Below, piece after piece: positions 16,405 through 56,740 of a stretch of 64,000 nucleotides of DNA. Positions within the stretch are counted from its first letter, which is position 1; each line of letters opens with the position of its first letter. The notes beneath the pieces were generated by a model that saw only the letters and a list, made by a program, of their open reading frames with translations, was not told the DNA's origin and made no database searches. Origin of the DNA: Occultella glacieicola (lineage in GTDB: Bacteria; Actinomycetota; Actinomycetes; Actinomycetales; Beutenbergiaceae); the NCBI RefSeq assembly GCF_004353825.1, contig NZ_SMNA01000002.1:62001-126000 (forward strand). The letters run 5' to 3'. Position numbers and translations under genes: made by a program.

Positions 16405-16947
16405 ATGAAGGCCACGCCGGAGGAGCGGTTCGAGTCGTTGTACTGGACTCACCACCGTGAGCTGTTGGCCTTCATCCGCCGTCGGACCTCGCCGAACGTC
16501 GCGGAGGACATCCTGGCCGAGACGTTCGTGGTCACATGGCGACGGATCGAGGAGGTGCCGATGGAAGCGCGACCGTGGTTGTTCGGCGTCGCCCGGAATT
16601 CGATCCGGAACTACCTGCGCGCGGACGGTCGGCAGCAGGCGTTGCGGATCCGGCTCGAGCAGGAGCCGCCGGAGGCGCAGCCGGACCTCTCGGTGGCGAT
16701 CGCCAGCCGGGCGGACCTGGTCACCGCCTGGAACCTGTTGACCGACTCCGAGCAGGAGGTCATCGCGCTGACCGCGTGGGATGACCTCAGCAACAGCGAG
16801 GCCGCGACGGTGCTGGGGTGCACCAAGAGCGCGTTCGCCGTGCGCCTGTTCCGGGCGCGCAGACGCCTCCTCCATCTGTTGGAGCGCACCGGGACCGGAT
16901 CCTCGCGTTCGGGTCCGCGGCGACAGGCGCAGGGGAGCCAGTCATGA
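16405..16947 (+). CDS. ECF-type RNA polymerase sigma factor
   Basis: 180 residues. Region 2 is seen in RFESLYWTHHRELLAFIRRRT ... DILAETFVVTWRR (core binding and -10 recognition), region 4 in LTDSEQEVIALTAWDDLSNSEAATVLGCTKSAFAVRLFRARRRL (helix-turn-helix for -35). GGGGAGAGG precedes the ATG. The downstream gene overlaps by four bases and encodes a single-span membrane protein, the usual sigma/anti-sigma arrangement. Signal sensed and regulon are unknown. Confidence 0.9.
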   Translation: MKATPEERFESLYWTHHRELLAFIRRRTSPNVAEDILAETFVVTWRRIEEVPMEARPWLFGVARNSIRNYLRADGRQQALRIRLEQEPPEAQPDLSVAIASRADLVTAWNLLTDSEQEVIALTAWDDLSNSEAATVLGCTKSAFAVRLFRARRRLLHLLERTGTGSSRSGPRRQAQGSQS

Positions 16948-17783
16948 GCGACAACAACTCGACGCTGCTGCGTGCCGTGCAGCAGCTTGACCCGCAGGCG
17001 AACCCGGACCCGGTGGACAGCGACGCCCTTCTGGCGCGGGTCCGGTTGGCGATCGCGGACGCTCCTGCGGAGATGCCGGACCTCGCGCCGAGGCCGGTGC
17101 CACGGACCACCCGACGGGTCGTGGTCGGAGCGGCGGCCACGATCCTTCTCGGCGCCGCCGTCTACACGGTCGCGAATCCGGCCCAGCCGCCCGCGTACGC
17201 CTCCTGGACGCCGACCCCGACGGAACTCACCGCCCCGGTGGCTGCCGAGCGCGCCGTCGAATGCCCGACGGTGGAGGTCATGCAGGGCCCGCCCGAGGAC
17301 CCCACCGACATGACCGACATTCCGCTCACCATGAATCTGGCCGAGGAGCGCGGCGACTACACGTTCGCGGTGTCCTCGGGGGTCGGCGCCGAGGGGGAGA
17401 GCGCGTACAGCGTCTGTCTCATCGAACCGGACCGCATCACCGCGCAGGGGGAGGTCCTGCCGGCGGATGCGCTGACGCCCCCGGCCGCGTCCGACGTTGT
17501 CGTGCTGAACTCGAGCATCGACTGGAGTGTGAGTTCCGAGGAGGACGCCATCACCTACCTGGTCGGAACCGCCGGTGCGGACGTGACGGGCATCGATGTG
17601 AACGCTGTGGCCGGCAGCTTCGCCCACGCCTCGCTCGCCGACGGCTGGTGGGCCGTGTGGTTCCCGGGCGACGTGGACCTGACCACCGATCTGACCGTGA
17701 CCACGAGCGACGGCACCACCCGGGAGGTCGCCGCGGTGCCGGGCAGCTCGGACGACACCGGCGATCCGGAGGACACCGACTGA
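16944..17783 (+). CDS. Single-span membrane protein, putative sigma-factor partner
   Basis: 279 residues. An N-terminal cytoplasmic segment (~50 residues: LLRAVQQLDPQANPDPVDSDALLARVRLAIAD) is followed by one hydrophobic helix (RRVVVGAAATILLGAAVYTVA, ~residues 53-73) and a ~200-residue outer domain ending in an acidic tail. There is no HxxxCxxC zinc motif, so it is not a ZAS-type anti-sigma factor; the pattern recalls CU044_5270-family partners of ECF genes. ATGA overlap with the sigma gene shows coupled translation. Role as anti-sigma factor is inferred from position. Confidence 0.7.
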   Translation: MSDNNSTLLRAVQQLDPQANPDPVDSDALLARVRLAIADAPAEMPDLAPRPVPRTTRRVVVGAAATILLGAAVYTVANPAQPPAYASWTPTPTELTAPVAAERAVECPTVEVMQGPPEDPTDMTDIPLTMNLAEERGDYTFAVSSGVGAEGESAYSVCLIEPDRITAQGEVLPADALTPPAASDVVVLNSSIDWSVSSEEDAITYLVGTAGADVTGIDVNAVAGSFAHASLADGWWAVWFPGDVDLTTDLTVTTSDGTTREVAAVPGSSDDTGDPEDTD

Positions 17784-17882
17784 GTCGGAACACAACCGAA
17801 CAAGTCTTGGACGGCCCGGTCGGCACGCCGATCGTGCAGGTCCGGGCACCGGAGTGGGGAGGGCCATCCGGCGCCCCACGGG

Positions 17883-17908
17883 GCCGGCCGCGCGGGGGCG
17901 CGGCCGGC
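17883..17908 (+). terminator. Strong GC hairpin after the sigma/anti-sigma pair
   Basis: Perfect 11-base arms (17883-17893 and 17898-17908) around a GGGG loop, 100 bases after the stop at 17783. Followed only by a weak T-poor tract, so termination may need help. Its 3' edge (GGCTCC, 17906-17911) is complementary to GGAGCC spanning the ribosome binding site of the next gene at 18020-18025. Confidence 0.6.
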
Positions 17909-17918
17909 TCCCGTTGTA

Positions 17919-18014
17919 GGGTGGGAGACCACGGACACCGGGGCTGACTGTGCCCCGAGTTTGACCGGCCCGATCTGGCCGGCGGGTCCTTTGCGCATCC
18001 CCGAGATCCCACCC
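17919..18014 (+). ncRNA. Candidate structured leader RNA upstream of the F420-0-type ABC transporter
   Basis: The 5' strand GGGTGGGA (17919-17926) pairs perfectly with TCCCACCC (18007-18014), closing a 96-base region. Inside are two further stems, CGGGGC/GCCCCG (17939-17944 with 17952-17957, seven-base loop) and CCGGCC/GGCCGG (17965-17970 with 17977-17982, six-base loop), giving a three-way junction. The closing stem ends five bases before the GGAG ribosome binding site (18020-18023) of the transporter gene. I could not match it to the conserved cores of the cobalamin, TPP or SAM riboswitches as I know them. Folding and position are seen; a ligand-binding role is only inferred. Confidence 0.45.
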
Positions 18015-18030
18015 GCGCTGGAGCCTGCCC

Positions 18031-19056
18031 ATGTCCCATGCTCGTCCCGTCGCCGCGCGCCCGGCCGCGGCGTTGCCCCTCGTCCTCGCCCTGGCCGCCT
18101 GCTCGGGCGGCGCCGCACCGGACCCGCCCGGCGCCGTGCCGCAGGAGTCGACCGTTCAGGCCGAGGTCGGGTACCCGGTGACCGTCGACAACTGCGGCAC
18201 GGAGGTGTCGCTGGAGGCGCCACCGGAACGCATCGTCACCATCAAGTCGGCCCCGACGGAGATGGTCCTGGCGCTCGGCCTCGGCGACCGGCTCGTCGGG
18301 ACCGCGTTCGCCGACGGTCCGCTCCCGGACGACCTGGCCGACGCCGGAGCCGACGTTCCCGTGCTCGCCGAGCAGGCGCCGTCGTCGGAGGTGGTGCTGT
18401 CCACCGAACCGGACCTGGTCTACGCGGGCTGGGAATCGAACCTGAGCGCCGAGACGGCCGGCGACCGGACCGCACTGGCCGACCTGGGCGTGGCCACCTA
18501 TGTGAGTCCTGCGGCGTGCCTCGAGGAGGGCTACCAACCGGACCCACTCACATTCGACGGCGTGTTCGCCGACATCATCGAGGCCGGGGACCTGCTCGGG
18601 GCCCCCGACGCGGCCGCGGACCTGGTGGCCGCACAGCAGGAGGAGCTGGCGGCCGTGGCGCCGTCGGACTCCGGGCTGAGTGCGCTCTGGTACTCCTCGG
18701 GCTCGGACACCCCGTACGTCGGAGCCGGGATCGGCGCGCCCCAGATGCTGATGGACGCGATCGGCGTGGAGAACATCGCCGCGGACATCGACGACTCGTG
18801 GTCCTCGCTGTCCTGGGAGGCGATCGCCGACGCCGAGCCGGACCTGATCATCCTGGTCGACTCCGCCTGGAACACGGCCGAGTACAAGATCGGCCAGCTG
18901 GAGGCGAACCCGACCACCGCGGCGCTGCCCGCGGTGCAGGAGGGGCGGTACCTGATCGTGGACTTCCCCGCCACCGAGGCCGGGGTGCGCAGCGTCCCGG
19001 CCGCGACCGAGCTCGCCGACCAGCTGGCGCAGCTGGAGTCGGGACCCGGCTCATGA
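18031..19056 (+). CDS. ABC transporter substrate-binding lipoprotein, putative F420-0 (BtuF-like) type
   Basis: 341 residues. Lipoprotein signal with lipobox LALAAC at about residue 28. The mature protein is a class III (BtuF/FhuD-like) binding protein: VTVDNCGTEVSLEAPPERIVTIKSAPTEMVLALGL opens lobe one, and FADIIEAGDLLGAP lies near the connecting helix. Such proteins carry cobalamin, siderophores or, in an actinobacterial clade linked to cofE, presumably F420-0. cofE and an F420-dependent enzyme lie 4 kb downstream, which favours the last. A GGAG lies seven bases before the ATG. Ligand not proven by sequence. Confidence 0.8.
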   Translation: MSHARPVAARPAAALPLVLALAACSGGAAPDPPGAVPQESTVQAEVGYPVTVDNCGTEVSLEAPPERIVTIKSAPTEMVLALGLGDRLVGTAFADGPLPDDLADAGADVPVLAEQAPSSEVVLSTEPDLVYAGWESNLSAETAGDRTALADLGVATYVSPAACLEEGYQPDPLTFDGVFADIIEAGDLLGAPDAAADLVAAQQEELAAVAPSDSGLSALWYSSGSDTPYVGAGIGAPQMLMDAIGVENIAADIDDSWSSLSWEAIADAEPDLIILVDSAWNTAEYKIGQLEANPTTAALPAVQEGRYLIVDFPATEAGVRSVPAATELADQLAQLESGPGS

Positions 19057-20237
19057 CCCGGCTCGACGTCGAGGCGGCTCGGGCGCCGCAGGAGCTCCGT
19101 TCGGGTGCGCCGTCCGCTCGACCGGCCGGCGCGACCTCCGCGGCCGCCGGACCCGACCCTGCGGTACCCCGGCCGGGCCCCGGGGCCACGCCCCGGCGGC
19201 CCGGCCGGATCCTGCTCTGGCTGCCGGCCGCGATCGCGGTCCTGGTCGTCTCCCTCCTGGTGTCGTTGACGATCGGTCCGGCGCAGATCACCGTCGCCGA
19301 GATCGTCGGGTCCGCATGGCACCACGTCCTGGCCTGGCTGCACGGTCTCGGGCTCGGCGTGGACGTGCCGCCCAACCCACTCACCGAGATCCGTGACGCG
19401 ATCATCTGGTCCGGCCGCGCACCCCGGCTCGCCACCGGCGCGTTCGTGGGTGCCGGGCTCGCCCTGTGCGGCGGGGTGATGCAGGCGATCACCCGCAATC
19501 CGCTCGCGGACCCGTACCTGCTGGGGGTGTCCTCCGGCGCCGCCCTCGGCGCGGTCGCGGTGCTGCTCCTCGGACTCGGTCTGGCCCTGCCCGTCGCGGC
19601 CTTCGGTGGGGCGCTGCTCGCCCTCGGCGCCACCCTCGCCCTGGCCGGGCTCGGCGGGCGGCTCAGCCCGAACCGGACCGTGCTGGCCGGGATCGCGGTG
19701 GCCCAGGCCTGCTCGGCACTCGTGTCCTTCACGATCTTCGCCGGCGCCCGCGGCGACGCCTACCGGGAGATCATCAACTGGCTGATGGGGTCACTGGCGG
19801 GCCGGACCTGGGCCTCCGTCGCGATCGCCGGGATCGCGACCGTCGTGATCGGCGTCGTGCTGCTCGGGTTCGGGCGCACGCTGGATGCGTTCGCGTTCGG
19901 GGACACGTCCGCCGCCTCCCTCGGCGTGCACGTGGTGCGGACCCGGTGGGTGCTGCTGACGCTCACGGCACTGCTCACCGGCGCCCTGGTCAGCGTCAGC
20001 GGAGCGATCGGTTTCGTCGGGCTCGTCCTGCCGCACGTGGTCCGGCTCCTGATCGGTGGGCGACACCTCCGCCTGCTCCCGGTCGCGGCGTTCGGCGGGG
20101 CCACGTTCCTGATCTGGGCCGACACCGCGGCACGGACCGTGTTCGCACCCCAGGAGGTCCCGGTCGGCATCCTCACCGCCGCGATCGGTGCCCCGGTGTT
20201 CGCGTGGCTGCTGGTCCGCTCGAGGAGGACCGCATGA
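19053..20237 (+). CDS. ABC transporter permease, putative F420-0 (FecCD/BtuC) type
   Basis: 394 residues. After a ~50-residue Pro/Ala-rich tail come about nine to ten membrane helices of the FecCD family; hallmarks are RAPRLATGAFVGAGLALCGGVMQAITRNPLADPYLLGVSSGAALG and GFVGLVLPHVVRLLIGGRHLRLLP. The ATG overlaps the binding-protein stop as ATGA. Only one permease gene is present, as expected for a homodimeric BtuC-like channel. Confidence 0.87.
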   Translation: MTRLDVEAARAPQELRSGAPSARPAGATSAAAGPDPAVPRPGPGATPRRPGRILLWLPAAIAVLVVSLLVSLTIGPAQITVAEIVGSAWHHVLAWLHGLGLGVDVPPNPLTEIRDAIIWSGRAPRLATGAFVGAGLALCGGVMQAITRNPLADPYLLGVSSGAALGAVAVLLLGLGLALPVAAFGGALLALGATLALAGLGGRLSPNRTVLAGIAVAQACSALVSFTIFAGARGDAYREIINWLMGSLAGRTWASVAIAGIATVVIGVVLLGFGRTLDAFAFGDTSAASLGVHVVRTRWVLLTLTALLTGALVSVSGAIGFVGLVLPHVVRLLIGGRHLRLLPVAAFGGATFLIWADTAARTVFAPQEVPVGILTAAIGAPVFAWLLVRSRRTA

Positions 20238-21091
20238 GCGGCGCACCGGACGCGACGGTGACCGTCGCGGACCTGTGGGCGAGCGAGTTGCGGTACCGGA
20301 TCAACGCGGCCGAGATCCTCGGCGGCGTGGACGTGAGCGTGCGCGCCGGGCAGATCACCGGGGTGCTCGGGCCGAACGGCTCCGGGAAGTCGACGCTGCT
20401 GCGGCTGATCGTGGGCGCCCTGGTGCCCTCGAGCGGTCACGTGCACCTGCTCGGCCGGGACGTGGCCCGGGTGGGCCGGCGCGAGCGGGCCCGCCAGGTG
20501 GCATTCGTCGAGCAGGAGGCGCACGCCGAGGTGGACCTACCGGTCCGGGACGTGGTGCTCCTCGGCCGGACCCCCCACCGGCCGGTGTTCTCCGGCGACA
20601 GTGCCACGGACCTGGACCTGGTCGAGTCCACGCTCCGACGCGCGGGTGCGCTGGAGCTGGCGGACCGGGCCTACGCGACGCTGTCCGGTGGGGAGAAGCA
20701 GCGGGTCCAGATGGCCCGGGCCCTGGCCCAGACACCGCGGGTGCTCCTCCTCGACGAACCGACGAACCACCTCGATGTCGCCGCCCAGCTGCAGGCACTG
20801 ACGCTGGTCCGGGAGGTGGCCGCCGCCGGCACCGGCGTACTGATGGCCATCCATGACCTCGCCCACGCCGCCGCGGTCTGCGACGACGTCCTGGTACTGC
20901 ACGAGGGCCTGGTGGTCGCCGCCGGGCCCCCGCGGGAGGTGCTCACCCCCGGGCTCATCGCCGCCGTGTACGGCGTGCACGCCGAATGGGTCGACGGCGA
21001 ACACGGGGCCGCTCTGGTGTTCTCACCACTGCGCGGCGAGGGTACGGCTCACCACCATCGGGCGATGCTGGCGGAGTCCTTGCGACGGTAG
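20234..21091 (+). CDS. ABC transporter ATP-binding protein, putative F420-0 (BtuD/FecE) type
   Basis: 285 residues. Walker A GPNGSGKST, Q-loop AFVEQEAH, signature LSGGEKQRVQMARAL, Walker B LLLDEPTNHLD and switch His in MAIHDLAHA are intact; the pattern LRLIVGAL...LLGRDVARVGRRERARQVAFVEQ is typical of FecE/BtuD ATPases. Start set at 20234 by the ATGA overlap with the permease and GAGGAGG upstream. Completes the importer. Confidence 0.88.
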   Translation: MSGAPDATVTVADLWASELRYRINAAEILGGVDVSVRAGQITGVLGPNGSGKSTLLRLIVGALVPSSGHVHLLGRDVARVGRRERARQVAFVEQEAHAEVDLPVRDVVLLGRTPHRPVFSGDSATDLDLVESTLRRAGALELADRAYATLSGGEKQRVQMARALAQTPRVLLLDEPTNHLDVAAQLQALTLVREVAAAGTGVLMAIHDLAHAAAVCDDVLVLHEGLVVAAGPPREVLTPGLIAAVYGVHAEWVDGEHGAALVFSPLRGEGTAHHHRAMLAESLRR

Positions 21092-21101: not shown

Positions 21102-22388
21102 ATGCCCTTGAGCGACGGACGGCGCTGGCGCCTCGACATCCCCCGCCCGAGCGTGAAGACCCTGAGCACGGCCGCCCGATGGTGGCTCGCGGCCACCGTG
21201 GCGGCCCACCTCGGGGCGGCCGTCACCGTCATGACCGTCGACCACATCCGTAAGCGTCGGACCCCGCTGGCGGGCGAGTTCCCCCGCACCCCACCGGGCA
21301 CCGTGCCGGTGGCGGACTCCGAGGTGACCACCTACACCTTCGGTGCGGACGTGTTCGACGCGATGCTCGACTCGATCAACAACGCTAAGCACACGATCCT
21401 GTTCGAGACCTACATCTGGAAGGCCGACGAGGTCGGGCACCAGTTCAAGGACGCACTCATCGCCGCCGCCCGGCGGGGCGTGGACGTGTACCTCATCTGG
21501 GACACGTTCGGGAACCTGGTGGTCGATCCGCGCTTCTACCGGATGCCGGACCTACCCACACTGCACGCGCTCCGGTTCCCGCTGTTCCGCGGCGGCTTCC
21601 TCACCCTGAATGTGCGCAAGACCGGCCTCGACCACCGCAAGATGCTCGTGGTGGACGGCGAGACCGGCTACGTCGGCGGGTACAACATCGGGTCGCTGTA
21701 CCGCACCCAATGGCGCGACACCCACGTACGCGTCGAGGGGCCGTCGGTCTGGGAGCTGCAGAACGCCTTCGTCGACTTCTGGAACGACCACCGCCGCTCG
21801 TTCCACCCGGAGCTGCCGGACACCGGGGCGCACGGCTGGGAGCCCCGGATCCGTGCCGCCCAGAACGAACCGAGCCGGTTGTTGTTCCCGGTCCGCGGCC
21901 TCTACCTGGAGGCGATCGACCGGGCCGAGTCCCACGTGTACATCACGCAGGCGTACTTCATCCCGGACCGGGAGATCCTGGCCACCCTGATCGCGGCCGC
22001 GCGGCGGGGCGTCGACGTGCGGGTGCTCATCCCGGAGGTCTCCAACCACGTCCTCGCGGACTGGGCCGCACGGACCTACTACACCCGCCTGCTGGAGGCC
22101 GGGGTCACCCTGTGGCTGTTCAAGGGCGCCATGGTGCACGCCAAGACCATGACCGTGGACGGTCGCTGGTCCACGATCGGCACCACGAACATCGACCGGA
22201 TGTCGATGACCGGGAACTTCGAGGTGAACCTCGAGTTCTACGACGACGACCTCGCCGCGCAGATGGAGCGCGTGTTCACCACCGACCTGACCAACGCCCG
22301 CCAGCTCACGCACGAGGAGTGGACCGGACGGAGCCGGGGGACGCGGGTCCTGGAGTACCTGACCAAGCCGTTCGGGCCGCTGCTCTAG
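21102..22388 (+). CDS. Phospholipase D / cardiolipin synthase-like protein
   Basis: 428 residues. One N-terminal hydrophobic helix (WWLAATVAAHLGAAVTVMTV, ~residues 24-43) then two HKD catalytic motifs: DHRKMLVVDGETGYVGGYN and HAKTMTVDGRWSTIGTTN, the pair needed for phosphatidyl transfer. This is the layout of ClsA/B-type cardiolipin synthases; the enzyme joins phosphatidylglycerol at the membrane. A nuclease or other PLD-type role cannot be excluded. Start at 21102 is supported by the TAGGTT -10 seven bases upstream. Confidence 0.85.
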   Translation: MPLSDGRRWRLDIPRPSVKTLSTAARWWLAATVAAHLGAAVTVMTVDHIRKRRTPLAGEFPRTPPGTVPVADSEVTTYTFGADVFDAMLDSINNAKHTILFETYIWKADEVGHQFKDALIAAARRGVDVYLIWDTFGNLVVDPRFYRMPDLPTLHALRFPLFRGGFLTLNVRKTGLDHRKMLVVDGETGYVGGYNIGSLYRTQWRDTHVRVEGPSVWELQNAFVDFWNDHRRSFHPELPDTGAHGWEPRIRAAQNEPSRLLFPVRGLYLEAIDRAESHVYITQAYFIPDREILATLIAAARRGVDVRVLIPEVSNHVLADWAARTYYTRLLEAGVTLWLFKGAMVHAKTMTVDGRWSTIGTTNIDRMSMTGNFEVNLEFYDDDLAAQMERVFTTDLTNARQLTHEEWTGRSRGTRVLEYLTKPFGPLL

Positions 22389-22406: not shown

Positions 22407-22946
22407 CTAGACGCCCGTGAGGGCGTAGTGGGGCTCCGGTGGCAGTTCGACGGCGATCGCTTCCCCCGGCCGGACGGTGCCGCTGCGCGCCACGACACCC
22501 ATGACCCCGGCGAGCTTGTGCACCTGCCCGGAGTCGTCCTTGCGGAGCACCTTCTTGAGCAGTCCGGGCTGGAAGTCGTTGATCTGCTGGCACGGGTTCC
22601 GCAGCCCGGTCACGATGACGACCGCGTCCGCGATGTGCAGCCGGGCGCCGACGGGCAGGTCGAGCAGGTCGATCCCCACCGTGGTGATGTTCTCGCCCAG
22701 CTGCCCGGGCCCGACGCGGTGCCCCGTCATGCCGAGCTCCTCGAGGAGTTCGGCGTGGATCAGGTGCACCTGACGCAGGTTCGGCTGACTGGGGTTGGCG
22801 GCCACCCGGCTCCGGTGTCTCACCGTGGTACCCGCGTGGGCATCCCCTCGGACGCCGACGCCCTCGACGAGTTCGATCTGCGGGGTGGTGGACTTGCTGA
22901 AGGTGTGGGTCGGGCTGACGTGGACCGAATCGACTCGTGCGCTCAT
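22407..22946 (-). CDS. MOSC-domain protein
   Basis: 179 residues. MOSC domain features: start SVHVSPTHTFSK, the segment GVGVRGDAHAG, NLRQVHLIHAELLEELG, PGQLGENITTVGIDLLDLPVG and the conserved Cys in LRNPCQQI. MOSC proteins handle molybdenum-cofactor-bound sulfur or related oxidoreductions; standalone ones are poorly characterised (YiiM-like proteins reduce N-hydroxylated compounds). The ATG at 22946 is chosen over a longer frame because the upstream extension has no homology-like content. Lies downstream of cofE with 70 bases between. Confidence 0.85.
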   Translation of the reverse strand: MSARVDSVHVSPTHTFSKSTTPQIELVEGVGVRGDAHAGTTVRHRSRVAANPSQPNLRQVHLIHAELLEELGMTGHRVGPGQLGENITTVGIDLLDLPVGARLHIADAVVIVTGLRNPCQQINDFQPGLLKKVLRKDDSGQVHKLAGVMGVVARSGTVRPGEAIAVELPPEPHYALTGV

Positions 22947-23016
22947 GGGGTGGTGATCCTCGGCGGGTCGGCGGACTCGGCCCGTGCCTGGTCGCGAAGC
23001 CCGCGTGGTGGAACGG

Positions 23017-23751
23017 TCAGTTGCCGGTGCGGAACATGTCCTCCTCGGGCGGGCGGATCGCGACGGCGGCGCCGTCACCGTCCTCCTGGGTGACCAGGTG
23101 CCCGAGGCCGCGGACCACGGCGAACGGGCGTCCCTTCGCCTTGCCGCGGACCAGGTCCGCGGCCCCGGCGATCTCGTCGGCGACGGCGATCACGCTGGCC
23201 CGCAGGTCCCGGCCCTGCATGTCCTGCTGGCCGCGCAGGTCCTCCAGCACGTTCAGGCCGGCCGCGCCGATCGAGATGTCGGCGATGCCGCGCCGCCACG
23301 GGCGACCCACGGTGTCGGTGACCAGCACCCCGGGCCGAACCCCGAGCCGGGCGTTCAGGCCGCGCCGGATCCGGCGGGCTGAGGCGTCCGGGTCCTCCGG
23401 CAACAGCAGCACGGTACCGGGCAGCACGTTCGAGGCGTCCACCCCGGCGGCGGCCATCACCAGGCCCTGCTTGTTCTCCACGATCCGTAGCGTGGACCCG
23501 TCCGGGTACTCGCGGGTGGCCACCACCCGCACCGTCTCGGCGGTGATCGCGGCCTCGCGGTCCTTGCCGGCCACCAGGCGGCCCTCCGCCTTGGCGACGA
23601 TCTTGGAGGCGATCACGATGATGTCCCCCTCGGCCGGCCCGGTCGAGCCGTCGGGCCAGGTCAGGGCGGCGAGCAGCGGGGTGAGCAAGGCGGCCAGGTC
23701 CGTTCCGGACGTGACCTCACCGACGCCGTCGGGCGCTTGGACGAGCAGCAT
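23017..23751 (-). CDS. cofE: Coenzyme F420-0:L-glutamate ligase
   Basis: 244 residues, CofE domain only; it lacks the nitroreductase-like C-terminal domain of mycobacterial FbiB. Diagnostic segments are [79 protein letters not shown] and [15 protein letters not shown]. The enzyme adds glutamates to F420-0 using GTP, building the tail that F420-dependent enzymes bind. Its ATG directly follows the TGA of the upstream LLM gene, so the two form an operon. Other F420 synthesis genes (cofC, cofD, fbiC) are not in the window. Confidence 0.92.
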
Positions 23752-24750
23752 TCAGCGGACCACCTTGGGCAGGACGTCGCGGCCGAAGGTCTCGATCCAT
23801 TCGGTCTGGTTCCGGCCGACGTTGTGCAGATAGATACGGTCGAATCCTAGGTCCGCGTAGGCCTGGATCGCACGCAGGTGCACCTCCGGGTCCGCGGAGA
23901 CCACCATCCGGCCCTCGAAGTCCTCCGGTCGCACCATCTTCGCGACCTGGGCGAACTCGAACGGTGAGCGGATGTCCGCCTTCGGGAACCGCATCGCCCC
24001 GTTCGGCCACTGGGTCATCGCGTTCGCGAGGGCCACCTCGTCGGTCTCGGCCCAGGACAGGTGCAGCCGGACCACCTTCGTCATCGACGCCGGATCCCGG
24101 CCGGCCTCCTTCGCGCCGGCGGCGAACCGCGCGAGCAGGGTAGCCACCTTGTCCACCGGTGCACCGATCGTGATCAGGCCGTCCGCATGCTTTCCGGCGC
24201 GGCGCGCGGTCACCGGCCCACCCGCGGCGATCAGGATCTCCGGCGCGACCTCGGGCATGGTCCACAGCCGGGTCGACTCGAGTTTGAAGAACTCGCCGGA
24301 ATGCTTGTAGTCCCGGCCGGCCAGTGAGTTCGAGAACAGCCGCGCGATGAGGTCCACGGCCTCGAACATCCGGTTGATCCGCTCCGGCGCCTCCGGCCAG
24401 TAGCCACCGACGATGTGCTCGTTGATCGCCTCCCCGGAGCCGATGCCGAGCCAGTGCCGACCCGGGTACATCGCCGCCAGCGTCGCGCTCGCCTGCGCCA
24501 CCATCGCCGGATGCCACCGGAACGTCGGCGCACTCACGCCGGGACCGAGGTCCCCGGCGGTCCGCTCCCCCAGCGCCGCCAGCACGTTCCAGACGAACGA
24601 CGCCTGCCCCTGCGCCGGCACCCACGGCTGGTAGTGGTCGGCCGCCATCACCCCGGAGAACCCGTGTGCCTCCGCCTGTGTGGCGTAGGAGAGCACCTCC
24701 CTCGGGTGGAACTGCTCGAGCATCGCCGCGTAGCCGATGGTCAACGTCAT
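23752..24750 (-). CDS. F420-dependent LLM-class oxidoreductase (G6PD-related family)
   Basis: 332 residues. Related to F420-dependent glucose-6-phosphate dehydrogenase: IGYAAMLEQFHPREVLSYATQAE, AADHYQPWVP (His and Trp of the active site) and GIGSGEAINEHIVG (Glu). It lacks Fgd's exact substrate-loop sequence, so the substrate differs or is unknown (TIGR03557-like group). The ATG at 24750 is preferred over one 17 codons upstream because TAGGCT (24758-24763) lies seven bases before it. First gene of the operon with cofE. Confidence 0.85.
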   Translation of the reverse strand: MTLTIGYAAMLEQFHPREVLSYATQAEAHGFSGVMAADHYQPWVPAQGQASFVWNVLAALGERTAGDLGPGVSAPTFRWHPAMVAQASATLAAMYPGRHWLGIGSGEAINEHIVGGYWPEAPERINRMFEAVDLIARLFSNSLAGRDYKHSGEFFKLESTRLWTMPEVAPEILIAAGGPVTARRAGKHADGLITIGAPVDKVATLLARFAAGAKEAGRDPASMTKVVRLHLSWAETDEVALANAMTQWPNGAMRFPKADIRSPFEFAQVAKMVRPEDFEGRMVVSADPEVHLRAIQAYADLGFDRIYLHNVGRNQTEWIETFGRDVLPKVVR

Positions 24751-24757
24751 GGACGCG

Positions 24758-24763
24758 AGCCTA
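24758..24763 (-). promoter_or_regulatory. Leaderless -10 element TAGGCT
   Basis: TAGGCT on the minus strand, seven bases before the LLM/cofE operon start at 24750, without a Shine-Dalgarno sequence. Confidence 0.45.
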
Positions 24764-24785
24764 ATGGGCACACCGGGACGCTTAT

Positions 24786-24800
24786 CGGGAATGCTTCTCA
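24786..24800. promoter_or_regulatory. Candidate Zur-like site upstream of L33
   Basis: CGGGAATGCTTCTCA agrees at 10 of 15 positions with the palindromic actinobacterial Zur consensus as I remember it. It lies about 80 bases upstream of a cysteine-free L33 gene, where Zur control is expected. Match is imperfect, so this is tentative. Confidence 0.3.
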
Positions 24801-24878
24801 CCCGAGAGTGGTTGTTCGTGGTGCCGGCGGATCGCCGGCTCAGTGGTGCGGTGAGACCGCGCAGAAGGAGAAGTGTCG

Positions 24879-55850: not shown

Positions 55851-56740
55851 GCGAGGAGCACCCGGGCGCCGGGCGCCACGTCGTGACCCGCATGCTCGGG
55901 GTCGAACCCGGAGCGCACCCGAGCCGGGCGACCCGCCACCCCGTGGTCCCTGGTGGGCGCCGGCGTGAGCAGGCCCGGCGCGGCGACGTCGCCGAGCACG
56001 ATCACGGCGGGATTGCGCACCCCTACCTGCTCGGCGCGGGCGACCAGCTCCCCCAGCGGCGCACGGGTGACCCGCTGGGCCGGCGTGGACCCGTTCTCGA
56101 CGATGGCTGCGGGCAGGCCGGGGGCGGACCCGGCGGCCAGCGCCTGGTCCACGATCCGCTCCAGCATCGCGACGCCCATCAGGATGACGACGGTAGCGCT
56201 GCGGTGTTTCAGACAGGTGACGGCCGCCTCGTCGAGTCCGTCATGGCCACTGAGCACGTGGAACGCGGCCACGGTGCCGCGGTGGGTCACCGGGATGTCC
56301 GCGAGCGCGGGAACGGACAGTGCGCTGCTCACCCCGGGGATGATCTCGACGGCGATGCCGGCCTCCCGGCACGCGATCGCCTCCTCGCCGCCGCGGCCGA
56401 ACACGAACGGGTCGCCGCCCTTGAGGCGCACCACCACGCGGCCCCGCCGGGCCTGCTCGAGGAGGATCTCGTTGATCTCCTCCTGCGGCACCCGGTGGTG
56501 GCCGGGCACCTTCCCGACGTCGATGACCTCGACGTGCGGCGGCAGGTCGTCGAGCACCTCGGTCGGGGCCAACCGGTCCACCACCACCACGTCGGCCGTC
56601 TGCAGTGCCCGCCACGCCCGCAGGGTGAGCAGATCCAGCGCGCCCGGGCCGCCGCCGACGAGGATCACCCGGCCGACGCCGCCGGAGGCCCCTGCGGCAC
56701 ATGCGGCACCTGCCGCAGCACCCGCCCGCTGCGTGCTCAC
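55847..56740 (-). CDS. cobA: Uroporphyrinogen-III C-methyltransferase
   Basis: 297 residues from the GTG at 56740, which overlaps the nirD stop as GTGA. SUMT motifs: [75 protein letters not shown]. Makes precorrin-2 for siroheme, the cofactor of nitrite reductase next door. No oxidase domain attached. C-terminal ~30 residues are a low-complexity tail. Confidence 0.92.
   Translation of the reverse strand: MSTQRAGAAAGAACAAGASGGVGRVILVGGGPGALDLLTLRAWRALQTADVVVVDRLAPTEVLDDLPPHVEVIDVGKVPGHHRVPQEEINEILLEQARRGRVVVRLKGGDPFVFGRGGEEAIACREAGIAVEIIPGVSSALSVPALADIPVTHRGTVAAFHVLSGHDGLDEAAVTCLKHRSATVVILMGVAMLERIVDQALAAGSAPGLPAAIVENGSTPAQRVTRAPLGELVARAEQVGVRNPAVIVLGDVAAPGLLTPAPTRDHGVAGRPARVRSGFDPEHAGHDVAPGARVLLA

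Follow-up and report, generated by a model that had tools for sequence, protein, structure and literature searches.

The operon for a putative F420-precursor importer in the window, the whole 64,000-nt stretch of DNA analysed here, is preceded by a conserved, structured element of 57 nt with a three-way-junction core. The element occupies positions 17933-17989 of the plus strand and was scored at 55.3, 55.2 and 50.7 bits by three covariance models (R1, R2 and R3, respectively); the R1 match has an E-value of 2.3e-12 over 631 kb, the window sequence being among the 24 seeds of that model. We regard the element as almost certainly a real conserved RNA. It is best explained as a conserved cis-acting leader RNA of ∼57 nt at the 5′ end of the mRNA that makes uptake by the importer follow deazaflavin status, a reading to which we assign a probability of about one half. 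More tentatively, and at somewhat less than even odds, we propose that it is a new class of riboswitch that directly senses Fo, F420-0 or F420 and controls the uptake of F420 precursors in bacteria without Fo synthesis.

In the window, a closing stem P1 is formed by GGAC (17933-17936) and GTCC (17986-17989). It holds hairpin P2 (17939-17957; CGGGGC, loop TGACTGT, GCCCCG) and hairpin P3 (17965-17982; CCGGCC, loop CGATCT, GGCCGG), all on the plus strand. A linker (17990-18019), which has no clear extra hairpin in Occultella, leads to the Shine-Dalgarno sequence GGAG (18020-18023). The first-pass annotation had described a junction-type leader RNA in front of the importer, and a structured element is indeed present; its closing stem, however, is P1 and not the 8-bp pairing of 17919-17926 with 18007-18014 that had been put forward. 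The two strands of that outer stem, GGGTGGGA and TCCCACCC, are perfectly complementary, two further stems lie between them as described, and the gap from 18014 to the GGAG at 18020 is five bases, as claimed. As an RNA stem (17919-18014, plus strand) it was rejected: it overlaps the presumed −10 box, it is absent from the consensus fold, and its differences in three relatives of the same genus are uncompensated, with two mismatches in L005 and one mismatch and one G-U pair in each of L003 and L004. We conclude that the outer stem is probably not in an RNA.

A similar fate met the proposed alternative fold, in which GGCTCC (17906-17911) would pair with GGAGCC (18020-18025). The two sequences are complementary, but the −10 box lies downstream of GGCTCC, and on this ground a switch between them is rejected. 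Upstream of this box, and outside the leader, there is also a GC-rich hairpin of 16 pairs and one bulge (17878-17914, plus strand) in the predicted fold of 17860-18040. This fold beats 200 of 200 shuffles (z −3.32), but since the stretch includes the upstream hairpin, much of the signal probably does not concern the leader.

The genome of the window was placed in Ruaniaceae, Micrococcales, its nearest named relatives being O. gossypii and O. aeris with a substrate-binding protein 85% identical. Orthologous leaders came from 24 genomes of the family and from the best 80 of 192 loci of named relatives. By script and by eye, many of these leaders share GGAY, a hairpin, a linker, a second hairpin and RTCC right after a TANNNT box; 66 of 102 leaders were parsed for this architecture, a few of them wrongly. 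Model R1 was built from a seed alignment of 24 leaders, R2 from 72 matches at E ≤ 0.012 from 96 sources (the same 72 being among 88 kept) and R3 from 89 matches found in 100 sources chosen by hand. The 89-row alignment has a median pairwise identity of 0.61.

Covariation was found among orthologous leaders for the stems of the inner element in the covariance-model alignments. With alignment A4 chosen by pairing and A6 and A7 fitted to the structure, the pair counts are favoured and the cells are not independent; read in this way, 96.3% of the cells are paired in the seed alignment, with double-sided changes in 11 of 17 pairs, and 95.6% are paired in both the 64 and the 85 distinct rows, with double-sided changes in 15 of 17 pairs. 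In shuffles of the 85 distinct rows the mean number of double-changed pairs was 11.2, and 15 were reached in 1 of 500. The number of double-changed cells was 204, compared with a shuffle mean of 52.6, and none of the 500 shuffles had as many. Slid controls on the 85-row alignment were only 24-59% paired. By stem, double-sided changes affect three of the four pairs of P1, all seven model pairs of P2 and five of the six of P3. The sequence of P1 is GGA/UCC in most rows and CGA/UCG in some Microbacteriaceae, a compensating change.

Untrimmed MAFFT alignments were also folded with RNAalifold. Only the inner hairpins P2 and P3 were predicted for 15 Ruaniaceae-type leaders, the window included, while P2, P3 and a further hairpin, P4, were predicted for 18 other leaders of the Promicromonosporaceae/Cellulomonadaceae type, where P4 lies in the region of the linker. 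The short stem P1 was not recovered by RNAalifold on these alignments. P4 stands just after P1, and its core, GCGAGATGGCGCG, is almost invariant in many Promicromonosporaceae-type leaders (for example, L060:2811-2831 and L066:2769-2792). The core is found in 21 of 102 upstream regions, and double-sided changes of P4 occur in the wider set.

A presumed −10 box, TAGGGT, lies at 17917-17922 (plus strand) in the window. Of 89 leaders, 87 have a TANNNT sequence 5-12 nt ahead of P1, at 6-7 nt in 60 of the 87, and none of the 89 has one in the next 22 nt upstream. Because the box sits just before P1, the element should open the transcript, with the start at P1 or, for the 10-nt gap found in the window, a few bases upstream of it. 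A scan for consensus sigma-70 promoters returned none in 17700-18100. The presumed promoters of the 89 leaders have no −35 consensus; the base four positions upstream of the −10 box is G in 72% of them, an unusual form of extended −10.

Inverted repeats immediately 3′ of a −10 box occupy a classical place for repressor binding. The element could thus be a DNA operator, its two dyads being bound by a repressor. We consider this highly improbable, since G-U combinations fill 98 cells while C-A combinations fill 16, an excess expected of an RNA read from this strand but not of a DNA operator. The loops are asymmetric, and the letters of the stems turn over with pairing kept, as in the GGA/UCC to CGA/UCG change of P1.

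The distribution of the element was examined by scanning 396 genomes of the order with R2, which gave 49 matches in 47 genomes. As many as 45 of the 49 lie 173-674 nt upstream of a TIGR03868 domain on the same strand, though R2 was built from importer leaders, some of which are among the 45. The remaining four overlap long reading frames, and no other type of target gene was found in the scan. The order contains 97 importers over the cut-off; 44 were matched in the scan, and 31 of the 53 missed leaders were recovered at full sensitivity (E ≤ 0.01), so that the element precedes the importer in 75 of 97, some of these leaders having been used to build the models. For 22 of the 97 there was no match at the thresholds used. 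Weak matches elsewhere were taken as chance, namely two in the window (21818-21894 and 56126-56157) and two in its own genome (24.1 and 21.5 bits, the former within a reading frame).

Scanning with R3 was extended to a class-wide draw of 394 genomes. Eleven of 18 matches lie before an importer by coordinates; the remaining seven, all weak at 32-40 bits, comprise six that overlap long reading frames and one (L247) outside them, and were taken as chance and not as new targets. Outside the order, R3 matches were found upstream of the gene in 13 of 19 over-cut-off importers, with E-values of 0.0023-0.21 that are individually weak. Eleven of the 13 come from one family, have a mean column identity of 89% and stand right after a TTAAGAT-like box. 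Leaders L258-L270 (family f38, outside the order) show the same architecture before importers with strongly conserved sequence, and several genomes of this family hold two or three TIGR03868 relatives.

Spacing from the element to the gene varies, with a median of 55 nt and a range of 11-182 nt by a simple start-codon rule that misplaces some starts. This variable spacing and the predicted location at the transcript start would suit a structure that stabilizes the 5′ end or serves as a ribosome stand-by site with no role in sensing. Such a structure would hardly be restricted to one type of operon or have conserved loop letters, and we give this explanation the least credence of all.

The importer is encoded on the plus strand by genes for a substrate-binding protein (18031-19056; TIGR03868, 459.9 bits against a cut-off of 392.4; Peripla_BP_2), a permease of the FecCD type (19053-20237; TIGR03869, 466.4 bits against 437.35, with a FecCD match) and an ATPase (20234-21091; best family TIGR03873, 321.8 bits, below the cut-off of 372.4). 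Two genes related to F420 are found 2-4 kb from the importer in the window, both on the minus strand and above their cut-offs: cofE (23017-23751; TIGR01916) and an F420-type LLM oxidoreductase (23752-24801; TIGR03557). Directly upstream of the operon, 16405-17783 holds an ECF sigma factor gene followed by a gene for a protein with no NCBIfam or Pfam match. On its 3′ side lies a cardiolipin-synthase-like gene on the same strand (21102-22388; 255.4 bits, below the family cut-off of 290). A reading frame for a MOSC-domain protein (22407-23078, minus strand), whose start is ambiguous, shares ∼60 nt with the 3′ end of the cofE frame.

We also compared the occurrence of the importer with that of genes for F420 synthesis. 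In a test that covered 80 of the 97 importer genomes, Fo synthase (TIGR03551) was above the cut-off in 1 of 80, compared with 28 of 77 cofD-positive genomes without the importer; at E ≤ 1e-40 the counts were 3 of 80 and 51 of 77. The TIGR03551 search returned no Fo synthase candidate in the genome of the window. This pattern of replacement is not clean, since 26 of the 77 cofD-positive genomes have neither the importer nor a TIGR03551 match. Many actinobacteria that bear the importer seem to have lost de novo F420 synthesis. cofD is above the cut-off in 58 of 97 importer genomes, including that of the window (G000:C20:369508-370404). Among 38 same-contig pairs selected by eye, 23 (one of them with an importer below the cut-off) have cofD on the same strand, with its start 1810-2017 nt beyond the substrate-binding domain. 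This spacing is that of a fourth gene of the operon; G171, G258, G145 and G382 are among the examples.

Because cofD is present in many importer genomes, and often close to the importer itself, Fo is likelier than F420-0 to be the cargo in genomes that retain cofD, and ‘F420-0 importer’ as a family name may conceal an Fo importer. The simplest reading is that Fo is imported in genomes that retain cofD, and F420-0 or F420 in those that have lost it. An F420-related ligand had been offered as speculation in the first-pass annotation. It is now better supported, by the 45 of 49 matches that precede the importer and by the near absence of Fo synthase, and we still put it forward as a conjecture. 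The proposal rests on one importer with a predicted substrate, because no other type of gene carries the element. The cargo might instead be another cofactor or a metal chelate, in which case the RNA would be a riboswitch for a ligand other than a deazaflavin. The FecCD type of the permease fits this idea, and the NCBIfam models that label the importer are hypoth_equivalog, so that the F420-0 label is itself a hypothesis. Yet the scarcity of Fo synthase in importer genomes and the link to cofD speak against it, as does the lack of a match to cobalamin, FMN or other Rfam riboswitches, and we judge it improbable.

The terminal loops of P2 and P3 are alike. The consensus of their hexaloops is SGAYYU, with a final U in 44 of 44 (L2) and 49 of 50 (L3) cases; with all loop lengths included, 79 and 84 of 89 end in U. 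L2 and L3 of one leader are more alike than permuted loops (none of 1000 permutations as high). Such repetition points to a bipartite binding site, whether for a ligand or for a protein. Kissing between the two loops found no covariation support; their pairing energy was −1.58 kcal/mol in the same leader and −1.37 kcal/mol in permuted combinations, and 24 of 300 permutations were as good. Pairing of the loops with the next 90 nt was likewise unsupported, with 35 of 60 (L2) and 9 of 60 (L3) permutations being as good.

A protein could use such a repeated site. An RNA-binding regulator, perhaps a dimer, would grip both hairpins and block or free translation or transcription; the shared hexaloop consensus, the likeness of the loops within a leader and their U ends all suit it. 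The loop signature of ANTAR targets, A1 and G4, is absent from the 44 L2 and the 50 L3 hexaloops (the other 45 and 39 of the 89 loops are not 6 nt long), which rejects the element as an ANTAR target and counts against this explanation. We consider a protein-binding leader unlikely, although not to the degree of the other alternatives.

Folding of single sequences was also examined. On its own, the element is more stable than 195 of its 200 shuffles (z −2.25). For the whole leader, taken from 17931 into the gene, the stability is unremarkable (z +0.88), being equalled or exceeded by 169 of 200 shuffles. In folds of 85 whole leaders the mean probabilities of P1, P2 and P3 are 0.10, 0.58 and 0.42, respectively. 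In the predicted fold of the full leader of the window, P1 does not form and its 3′ strand (17986-17989) pairs instead with the Shine-Dalgarno region. This prediction suggests a switch in which P1 and the Shine-Dalgarno region would compete for that strand. Over 84 leaders this pairing shows no covariation (171 of 300 permutations as good). Among the other strands compared with the Shine-Dalgarno region, permutations were as good in 11 of 300 for the 5′ strand of P1 (the best of five tests, uncorrected), 23 of 300 for the first 40 nt after the element (likewise uncorrected for five tests), 279 of 300 for its middle and 300 of 300 for the first 40 nt of the gene.

The proposed deazaflavin-responsive leader could operate as follows. 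The short closing stem P1 would hold the two like-looped hairpins at the 5′ end of the importer mRNA, and the leader would tie uptake to the deazaflavin (Fo, F420-0 or F420) status of the cell, most simply by binding the deazaflavin directly. Binding would then alter whether P1 stays closed, and with it the readability of the start of the importer gene. Control would most likely be exerted on translation, an assignment favoured by the window leader, since a simple scan of 17700-18100 found no terminator with a T run. As to direction, repression in the presence of ample F420 would make physiological sense, whereas the modelled competition between P1 and the Shine-Dalgarno region would give activation on binding.

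If confirmed, a deazaflavin riboswitch would, as far as open-access searches reach, be the first RNA known to sense F420 or one of its precursors, and it might serve to report deazaflavin inside cells. Even with the ligand set aside, the tie of a covarying leader to a single importer opens the substrate of that importer to direct testing. The gene pattern points to frequent uncoupling of F420 use from Fo synthesis in Micrococcales; Fo could therefore be a shared good in communities.

The element has in common with riboswitches a conserved, covarying structure in the 5′ leader of an operon linked to metabolism. No match to the cobalamin, TPP or SAM cores had been recognized by the first-pass annotation, and comparison with Rfam 15 agrees: at gathering scores there were no matches in the 64-kb window or in 20 leader loci, and a permissive search of 17780-18100 returned only two matches, both at chance level. 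Riboswitches of the purine type are three-way junctions in which a closing stem carries two hairpins whose loops, L2 and L3, pair with each other. The element is alike in its closing stem and two hairpins, but it has no Rfam match and no support for loop-loop pairing. The guanidine-II (mini-ykkC) riboswitch consists of two small hairpins with like loops; the element resembles it in this respect but has SGAYYU loops in place of its loop signature, a closing stem and no match to Rfam. In the FMN riboswitch, a flavin is sensed by an aptamer built as a multi-helix junction of larger size. The ligand proposed for the element is likewise of the flavin type, but the element is smaller and again lacks an Rfam match.

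The published work considered consists of passages from PMC11109978, PMC12855090, PMC6429828, PMC8164766 and PMC2864571. No riboswitch for a deazaflavin or F420 is named in the parts of the open-access literature covered by our search, which did not extend to a 2017 catalogue of 224 candidate RNAs. Two-hairpin RNAs that are targets of ANTAR proteins have been reported across actinobacteria, with hexaloops that carry A1 and G4 (PMC8164766). Like the ANTAR targets described there, the element has two adjacent hairpins joined by a linker, often with 6-nt loops, and lies in leaders. It differs from them in its closing stem P1 and in its association with one family of target genes.
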